A stretch of 64,000 nucleotides of DNA from Candidatus Peregrinibacteria bacterium CG10_big_fil_rev_8_21_14_0_10_36_19 (lineage in GTDB: Bacteria > Patescibacteriota > Gracilibacteria > UBA1369 > LOWO2-01-FULL-3), in NCBI GenBank assembly GCA_002772535.1, contig PFDP01000014.1:165481-229480 (forward strand), in the 5' to 3' direction. Made by a program: the position numbers and the translations under genes. This document shows positions 3,873 to 33,809 of the stretch, in pieces. Positions within the stretch are counted from its first letter, which is position 1, and each line of letters opens with the position of its first letter. The notes below the pieces were generated by a model. That model had not been told where the DNA came from, did not search any database, and saw only the letters and a program-made list of their open reading frames with translations.

Positions 3873-5342
<1,470 letters not shown>

Positions 5343-29679: not shown

Positions 29680-30747
29680 CTAAGCAGTATATTTCACAAG
29701 CTGTTGCTCCTGATCCTCTTTAATCAATGCATCAATAATATCACCAATATCCCCTTCCATAATCCCAGGCAAATTACTCCAACTCTCCTTAATTCTATGA
29801 TCAGTAACTCTATCTTGAGGAAAATTATAAGTACGAATTTTTTCACTTCTATCACCAGTACCAATTTGGCTCAATCTCTCCTCTCCACGCTCAGCCGCCA
29901 ACTTCTCTTCCTCAATTGCATAAAGCCTAGCCCTCAAAACATTCATCGCCTTATTTCTATTTTTTAATTGCGATTTTTCATCCTGACAACTCACCACAAG
30001 CCCCGAAGGAATATGAGTAATACGAACAGCAGAATCGGTAGTATTAACAGATTGACCACCATTTCCACCCGCTCTAAAAGTATCAATACGCAAATCCGCA
30101 TCTTTAATCTCAATATCAACCTCTTCAGCTTCCGGCAAAACCGCCACAGAAGCAGTTGAAGTATGTACACGCCCCTGACTTTCAGTCACAGGAATTCTTT
30201 GCACTCTATGAACACCACTCTCATATTTCATAAGCCCATAAGCCCCATCACCACGCACCGCAAAAATCATTTCTTTAATCCTGCCAGGACTACCCTCACT
30301 TTTTTCAATCAACTCAATTTTCATCCCCTTTGCTTCAGCAAATCTCATATACATTCTACCAAGTTCTCCTGCAAAAATACCGGCTTCATCTCCACCTGCG
30401 CCAGCTCTCACTTCTATAATACAATCCTTCGCATCATTCAAATCCTTTGGTAAAAGTTCAACTTTAGCTTTTTCTTCTAAAGCTGGTATCAACTCATTCG
30501 CCTCGTTTAACTGATCCTGAGCCAGCTCTTTCATTTCCGCATCACCAGAAGCCAAAATTTCCTCAGCTTCAGTTTTAGCATCAACAGCTTGTCTTAGTTC
30601 AGTAGCCAATTTTGCCGCACTTTCCAAAGTTTTATATTTGCGTGATAAATCACGATACTTATTTTGATCCGCAATAATTTCAGGATCAGACAACTGCCCC
30701 TGAAGCTCCAAATATTCTGATTTTAATCTTTCCAATTTATCTAACAT
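29680..30747 (-). CDS. prfA: Peptide chain release factor 1
   Basis: RF1 ends translation at UAA and UAG. The 355 residues carry the catalytic GGQ motif in [21 protein letters not shown], near residue 230, and the typical [14 protein letters not shown] block. The PxT-type stop-recognition region lies in the domain-2 segment near [17 protein letters not shown] is used as a stop here, so an RF2 gene must lie elsewhere. It is 18 bp downstream of prmC, whose product methylates the GGQ glutamine, a common pairing. A leaderless promoter inside prmC may add separate expression. Confidence 0.96.
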
Positions 30748-30753
30748 GCAAAC

Positions 30754-30782
30754 ATTTAAACATATTTACCCTCTAACTACAA
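30754..30782 (-). promoter_or_regulatory. Possible leaderless promoter of prfA
   Basis: Minus strand TTGTAG (30777-30782), 17-bp spacer, TTAAAT (30754-30759), 6 bp, ATG at 30747. The boxes are imperfect; spacing equals that of other leaderless promoters. Confidence 0.45.
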
Positions 30783-31602
30783 ACATACGCTCAATACCAG
30801 CCAGATCTTTTACAATCTGCCATCTATCCACAAAAAATCTATTTAACAACGCAGCCATTTCATCAGACTGTCCAAAACCAAATTCCCCAACCAAAAGTCC
30901 AAATTTTATATTCTTTCCACTTAATTCTAAAAACATTTTTTCATAAAGTTCCAAACCACCCTCCCCACCAAATAAAGCCATTTTAGGCTCATAGTCAAAA
31001 GTAGCAGCATCCACAAATCTATTTCTAACTTCACCAATATAAGGAAGATTAGCCACTATCACATCAAACTCTTCATGCTCATCGATAACATCAAGCAAAT
31101 CACTAATAGCTAGTTGCACTCTATCTTCCACCCCATGCTGCTCAACATTCAAACGAGCAACATCAAGAGCATCCTCACTTAAATCTAAAGCCAAAACCTC
31201 GCATTCATCACACCCTTTAGCCACAGAAACAGCAATACAACCACTACCGGTTGCAACATCCAAAACCTTACCACTCCCACCATCTAAGTATTTTAAAACC
31301 TCTTCAACTAAAGCTTCTGTCTCAGGCCTAGGAATCAGAACCCTCTTATCAACATAGAAATTCAAACCATAAAACTCCTTTTCACCAGTAATATAAGCCA
31401 AAGGCTCACCATCAGAAACCCTATCTAAATATTTTTCATATAATGCCACTAAATCTCCATCAACAAGATCTTCACTATGTGCAAACAAATATTCACGACC
31501 AACCCCCAAAACATAAGCCAACAAAACTTCAGATTCTAAAAGACCAGTCTTCCTCTCATGAAGAAAACTGGTCCCTTTTTGTAACAATTCAGCAATTTTC
31601 AT
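30766..31602 (-). CDS. prmC: Release factor glutamine methyltransferase
   Basis: PrmC (HemK) methylates the glutamine of the GGQ motif in release factors with S-adenosylmethionine. The 278 residues have the N-terminal helical domain, PLAYITGEKEFYGLNF, the SAM motif VLDVATGSGCIAVSVA and the substrate motif VANLPYIG (NLPY in place of the usual NPPY). Start set at the ATG one base after the rpsU stop (TAG-A-ATG), so it is translated in step with rpsU. The longer upstream frame overlaps rpsU and is unlikely. Confidence 0.93.
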   Translation of the reverse strand: MKIAELLQKGTSFLHERKTGLLESEVLLAYVLGVGREYLFAHSEDLVDGDLVALYEKYLDRVSDGEPLAYITGEKEFYGLNFYVDKRVLIPRPETEALVEEVLKYLDGGSGKVLDVATGSGCIAVSVAKGCDECEVLALDLSEDALDVARLNVEQHGVEDRVQLAISDLLDVIDEHEEFDVIVANLPYIGEVRNRFVDAATFDYEPKMALFGGEGGLELYEKMFLELSGKNIKFGLLVGEFGFGQSDEMAALLNRFFVDRWQIVKDLAGIERMFVVRG

Positions 31603-31603
31603 T

Positions 31604-31813
31604 CTATTGGTAAAATTTACTCTTAGAACGTTTTGCACGATAAAATTCACGCATTATCGCAGATTGACGTATTTTACCCTTAGTTAAAGAGCGAGCATGG
31701 TATCTATTTCCACGAATTTGTGGGACTTTTCTACTAGATTGAACAGCTTTGTTAAATCTAGCAATACATCTTTCATTTGATTCCTTATCTGTTTTTACGA
31801 TATGTACTTTCAT
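31604..31813 (-). CDS. rpsU: Ribosomal protein bS21
   Basis: A 69-residue basic protein of the small subunit that sits near the 3' end of 16S rRNA. The pattern SNERCIARFNKAVQSS followed by basic, helical RQSAIMREFYRAKRSK matches bS21. It is the first gene of rpsU-prmC-prfA. Unlike its neighbours it has a real leader of about 35-40 nt and a long Shine-Dalgarno sequence, suggesting control through the 16S tail. The protein ends KFYQ, with aromatic residues that could contact the tail; that contact is inference. Confidence 0.88.
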   Translation of the reverse strand: MKVHIVKTDKESNERCIARFNKAVQSSRKVPQIRGNRYHARSLTKGKIRQSAIMREFYRAKRSKSKFYQ

Positions 31814-31820
31814 ATGTTTT

Positions 31821-31831
31821 TCACCTCCTTC
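31821..31831 (-). promoter_or_regulatory. Extended Shine-Dalgarno sequence of rpsU
   Basis: GAAGGAGGTGA on the minus strand, complementary over 10-11 bases to the 16S tail TCACCTCCTTTC, with 7 bases to the ATG. No other gene start that I examined in the window has a comparable site. Confidence 0.9.
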
Positions 31832-31855
31832 ACTAAAGTTAAAAAATTCTATGGC

Positions 31856-31883
31856 ATTATAAAGCCAAAATTCTAAAATGCAA
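31856..31883 (-). promoter_or_regulatory. Promoter of rpsU-prmC-prfA
   Basis: Minus strand TTGCAT (31878-31883), 16-bp spacer, TATAAT (31856-31861); predicted start near 31849, giving a leader of roughly 36 nt. Confidence 0.8.
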
Positions 31884-31889
31884 GAGAAA

Positions 31890-33809
<1,920 letters not shown>

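Follow-up and report, generated by a model that had tools for sequence, protein, structure and literature searches.

Autoregulation of bS21 has been described in F. johnsoniae and other Bacteroidota (McNutt 2023, PMC9976891; see also Jha 2021, as cited in PMC9976891). In Flavobacterium, bS21 contacts the anti-Shine-Dalgarno (ASD) sequence of 16S rRNA in a pocket to which bS6 and bS18 also belong, and an extended Shine-Dalgarno (SD) site on rpsU is defined in Bacteroidota by a duplex energy under -13 kcal/mol (PMC9976891). The Chlorobia resemble the genome described here in that their genomes largely lack SDs and none of their genes has a stronger one than rpsU, but they represent another lineage, the mechanism there has only been predicted and repeated change of the ASD is undescribed for them (PMC9976891). 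Ca. Peribacter riflensis and SR1 (Absconditabacteria) have been listed in a survey as lacking CCUCC, which does not appear to link the loss of the ASD in these groups to rpsU.

The locus analyzed here shows the pattern known from Bacteroidota (PMC9976891), as a previous sequence-only reading had proposed: the genome is poor in SDs, and rpsU is the single gene with a very strong, extended SD under -13 kcal/mol. Natural covariation between ASD and SD is likewise common to both groups, being found in the Bacteroidota in Chryseobacterium and relatives (UCUCA). By contrast, the Peregrinibacteria are part of the CPR phylum, their bS21 is too divergent for the Pfam cut-off, they compensate several different ASD changes and they have lost the SD many times alongside ASD drift. 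The sequestration pocket formed by bS21, bS18 and bS6 is known from Flavobacterium and would be a prediction for the Peregrinibacteria.

The rpsU gene, its leader and its neighbors

The window, i.e., the whole stretch of 64,000 nucleotides that was analyzed, contains rpsU on the minus strand (31604..31813), with a predicted product of 69 aa. The source genome is that of a Ca. Peregrinibacterium (Gracilibacteria, CPR). When searched alone, the rpsU product reached 16.5 bits against Pfam S21, which is below the cut-off. Pfam S21 was matched by 10 of the 14 members of its protein family, however, with a best value of 4.7e-8, and a profile built from this family retrieved Pfam S21 and the bS21 chains in the PDB; the open reading frame (ORF) therefore encodes a divergent bS21. 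Three genomes with a completeness rating of 99-100% (G032, G043 and G056) gave no bS21 match, which could reflect gene loss, extreme divergence or an assembly gap.

On the minus strand the leader reads ...GTGAAGGAGGTGA-AAAACAT-ATG, with the start codon at 31813 and the extended SD site, GAAGGAGGTGA, 7 nt before the ATG (31821..31831, minus strand). A perfect TATAAT further upstream (31856..31861, minus strand) probably represents the -10 box of an rpsU promoter, and would predict a 5’ UTR of about 35 nt; TATAAT is also found upstream of rpsU in many relatives, and a strict promoter scan did not include the TATAAT of this window among its listed promoters. Folding of the leader revealed no special structure (z -0.34), an Rfam search gave no credible match, and neither a leader structure nor an Rfam element offers an alternative mechanism for rpsU. 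In the order to which the source genome belongs, rpsU leaders also show a run rich in T and A 12-20 nt upstream of the SD; its conservation is weak, with TTTAAC or TTTAAT as frequent forms.

Downstream of rpsU, the ATG of prmC (30766..31602, minus strand; PrmC_N and MTS domains) lies one base past the rpsU stop codon, followed by prfA, encoding RF1 (29680..30747, minus strand; identified by reading the translated ORF), the next gene of a presumed rpsU-prmC-prfA operon. The conserved upstream neighbor is gyrB (31890..33800, minus strand). Among 66 loci of the order this arrangement is conserved, with gyrB upstream in 60/66 and prmC downstream in 65/66, and translational coupling from rpsU to prmC is plausible from the gene arrangement. 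A fusion of rpsU and prmC, which had been suspected from long open frames, was rejected; rpsU has its own stop codon in the loci that were read.

Pairing with the 16S tail and uniqueness of the site

The sole 16S rRNA gene of the genome is located in the same window and carries the ASD tail GATCACCTCCTTTC (3873..3886, minus strand), the 3’ end of this single copy being GGATGGATCACCTCCTTTC. With this tail the rpsU SD forms 10 Watson-Crick pairs and one G-U pair, with a duplex energy of -18.3 kcal/mol, so that the pairing over 10-11 bases, 7 bases before the ATG, noted in the earlier reading is borne out both in sequence and in position. A single strong match among many starts could in principle arise by chance; the frequency of random 21-mers from the source genome that pair as strongly as -18.3 is 7.7e-5, and about 0.03 such sites would thus be expected among some 400 starts. 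This explanation is refuted by conservation, as the site is found at the same gene and with similar spacing in 35 of 52 genomes of the order, and its probability can be considered negligible.

SD strength was ranked de novo with the genome’s own 16S tail for 405 ORFs from stretches totaling 457 kb (about 43%) of the 1.07 Mb genome, the remainder being covered by pattern search only. The rpsU site ranked first at -18.3; the next site reached -11.0, and the runners-up include doubtful ORFs. The search of the whole genome for AAGGRGGT-N-ATG gave 7 matches, as compared to 17 for a reversed control. Among the six matches besides rpsU, only the one at C12:2313 precedes a plausible start, and there the motif falls in the final codons of the gene before it. 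No SD signal was detected at the other genes relative to composition-matched shuffles (341 genes, -1.91 versus -1.93). The claim that no other start has a comparable site holds for the starts ranked here. Depletion of SDs at other genes, hinted at by an upstream mock window, was a composition effect that disappeared against the shuffles. An internal site of -18.6 in L082 was also rejected, as it lies in frame inside an hsp20-like ORF with no start there.

Rankings against their own tails in two further genomes gave the same picture, with rpsU first at -16.6 and the next gene at -10.7 among 213 ORFs (G013), and rpsU first at -18.0 and the next at -9.8 among 338 ORFs (G081). Ranking by SD strength, which the sequence-only reading had suggested for all genes, thus identifies rpsU as the outlier among the sampled ORFs of the source genome (G000) as well as of G013 and G081. 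One other member of the class (G168, family f33) seems to use SDs more broadly, and covariation in that genome is therefore not specific to rpsU.

Conservation and covariation of the rpsU site

With 16S tails taken from pattern matches and rpsU leaders from the loci, 52 genomes of the order had both. The duplex energies were bimodal, with 35 genomes at -14.6 or lower, and thus within the Bacteroidota limit of -13 kcal/mol, 17 at -5.9 or higher and none between. All 24 genomes with the canonical tail UCACCUCC carry the rpsU site, at -16 to -21, and none of the 8 genomes with a broken CUCC core does (Fisher p 3.2e-5, a value that ignores phylogeny). Relatives without the site, which had been named as evidence against the proposal, do exist; within the order, however, all such genomes with a known tail have a changed 16S tail too, no genome combines the exact canonical tail with a site-less rpsU, and the presence of the site in all 24 members with the canonical tail supports the proposal. 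In the wider class, seven genomes from families f22, f27, f30 and f31 have the exact canonical tail without the rpsU site.

Some genomes with a site-less rpsU have kept the CCUCC core, namely G007 and G019 (tail UUACCUCC), G031 and G087 (tail AUACCUCC) and G039, G052 and G062 (tail CCACCUCC), and two more, G058 and G061 (tail CCAUCUCC), have kept most of it. These site-less members of the order, in which most of the core persists, could have lost the site recently or may use the tail for something else. Retention of CCUCC in such genomes (G007, G019, G031, G039 and G052) is what would be expected if the ASD were kept for another ligand, e.g., an assembly factor, with rpsU merely exploiting the tail. 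Era has been shown to bind GAUCACCUCC (PMC10582724); among the matches listed, the Era-model matches in the order comprise the GTPase domain only, which makes Era an unlikely keeper of the 16S tail. As the absence of the rpsU site from all 8 genomes of the order with a broken CUCC core also argues against a separate ligand, we consider this explanation improbable.

In site-bearing genomes with an altered tail, the rpsU site has typically changed to match. The tail CAUCUCC of genera g12 and g15 is accompanied by GGGGATGA at rpsU, and the tail UUACCUCC in G081, G082, G075 and G073 by GGTAA, GGTAAT or GGTAG; in the class, UAUCUCC is found opposite GGATAG or GAGATAG, UUAUCUCC opposite GGAGATAA and AAUACCUCC opposite GGAGGTATTT. 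Across the class, the pairs of tail base and SD base were 30 C:G, 5 C:A, 0 T:G and 11 T:A at tail position 3, and 44 C:G, 3 C:A, 1 T:G and 10 T:A at tail position 5. A genome’s own tail paired better than the mean of differing, swapped tails in 59 of 60 site-bearing genomes. On a tree of the order built from gyrB, prmC and bS21 (66 genomes; a quick method that left many of the forks weak), an SD change from G to A was present in 6/6 sites facing a C-to-U change in the ASD and in 0/25 otherwise, among the 31 rows for which both a site and the tail are known, and 4 ASD changes were matched by 4 SD changes. These sequence comparisons provide strong evidence for compensatory change between the 16S tail and rpsU. 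Because the site covaries with the tail, rpsU genuinely uses SD-ASD pairing, and the ranking of starts shows it to be essentially the sole SD client of the genome.

The same data bear on the idea that the site is a relic, i.e., an ancestral SD that has not yet decayed. Its repeated loss and its presence in other CPR groups suggest that the site may be old, but a relic would erode, and yet no intermediate strengths were found; compensatory changes that follow the 16S tail in 6/6 cases largely refute this explanation, which we regard as very unlikely. On this tree the SD state has changed 11 times or more and the ASD core at least 4 times; such frequent change shows that the circuit is dispensable, which counts against the feedback reading discussed below, as does the CCUCC core kept in several site-less genomes. 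Loss of the SD and loss of the exact tail went the same way in 3.4 independent pairs and opposite ways in 0 (median p 0.25, with only 4 to 6 pairs available, too few for significance). The correlation between the two losses is suggestive of ASD decay following SD loss, an order of events that we infer.

The 16S tails and rpsU starts of the class present several further features. In family f21 (G093, G105, G137, G150, G188 and others) the 16S core is mostly CCGCC or UCGCC and rpsU lacks an SD; in several members a -10-like box precedes the rpsU ATG by about 12 nt, suggesting a leaderless mRNA. Family f25 has 16S 3’ tails such as GATAGACCACCATTCTAAC, in which the ASD core is strongly degenerate, and several members of families f25, f27 and f29 have an in-frame TGA in bS21, as expected if TGA is read as an amino acid. 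The MAG G003 has two distinct 16S 3’ ends, on contigs C16 and C40; one is of the f4 type, and contamination is the probable cause. In G001, G018 and G012 (L139, L141, L142 and L151-L153) the 16S genes break off where a contig ends, or close by, and do so at the same model position (about 800) in all three, which would fit an insertion or repeat that interrupts the assemblies.

Proposed bS21 feedback and its possible occurrence in the CPR

Since rpsU is essentially the sole client of the ASD, and given the experiments in F. johnsoniae (PMC9976891), feedback by bS21 probably best explains the unique rpsU SD, by analogy with Flavobacterium. In this mechanism bS21 would adjoin the 16S 3’ tail on the 30S subunit. 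In complete subunits the tail would be hidden or unneeded, and ordinary SD-less mRNAs would be translated; in subunits without bS21 the exposed tail could bind the extended rpsU SD, so that bS21 would be made until the subunits are complete. prmC and prfA may be co-regulated through coupling. In lineages that drop the rpsU site, the ASD would then drift and its core would be lost. The genes for bS21, bS18 and bS6 are all present in the genome (bS6 and bS18 by tblastn, L005).

The covariation proves pairing and says nothing of regulation, and the strong site could also be a ribosome binding site that ensures high expression of the rpsU-prmC-prfA operon and is retained for yield without any bS21 feedback. 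The probable promoter of rpsU and its position in the operon would suit such simple expression needs. However, no other sampled gene is so equipped, even though other ribosomal genes need equal amounts of protein, and rpsF and rpsR have no SD; a pairing of 9-12 bp exceeds what a plain ribosome binding site needs, and the one client is the gene for bS21, which in Flavobacterium contacts the ASD. We therefore consider a role in yield unlikely, while giving it some weight, and favor bS21 feedback.

Of 27 rpsU leaders sampled from outside the class, 14 reached -13 or lower when scored against the canonical tail, which may not be their own. Extended SDs of the AGGAGGTGA type occur in other CPR groups at L344, L350, L351, L355-L359, L362, L364-L366, L368 and L370; the start codon of these rpsU genes is often a weak TTG or GTG, which may mark regulated initiation. 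The presence of extended SDs elsewhere in the phylum suggests that the rpsU site may be an old CPR trait. The suggestion that the logic of the Bacteroidota recurs in an unrelated lineage is therefore correct in that the same pattern is found in another phylum, but its wording may mislead, as extended SDs also precede rpsU in these 14 of the 27 leaders sampled elsewhere in the phylum.

A search of open-access papers found no report of an rpsU/bS21 circuit in CPR. Circuits of this kind are already known from Bacteroidota and have been suggested in Chlorobia; within the papers searched, there seems to be no precedent for one in CPR, for the repeated compensatory change or for the loss of the site in parallel with the decaying 16S tail. 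Tentatively, with the chances close to even, the ASD of Peregrinibacteria may be kept by selection for one mRNA, that of rpsU, such that rpsU compensates when the ASD mutates and the ASD decays when the site is lost; bS21 feedback would then be old and widespread, and visible where general use of SDs has faded. This would extend the clearest bacterial case of specialized ribosomes to another phylum, where it is perhaps independent or ancestral. The many lineages that have retained, compensated or lost the rpsU site represent a natural experiment, and it becomes possible to test why an element of rRNA that is assumed to serve the entire genome persists where almost nothing uses it. For the hard-to-culture CPR bacteria, the circuit provides a concrete hypothesis on translation control.
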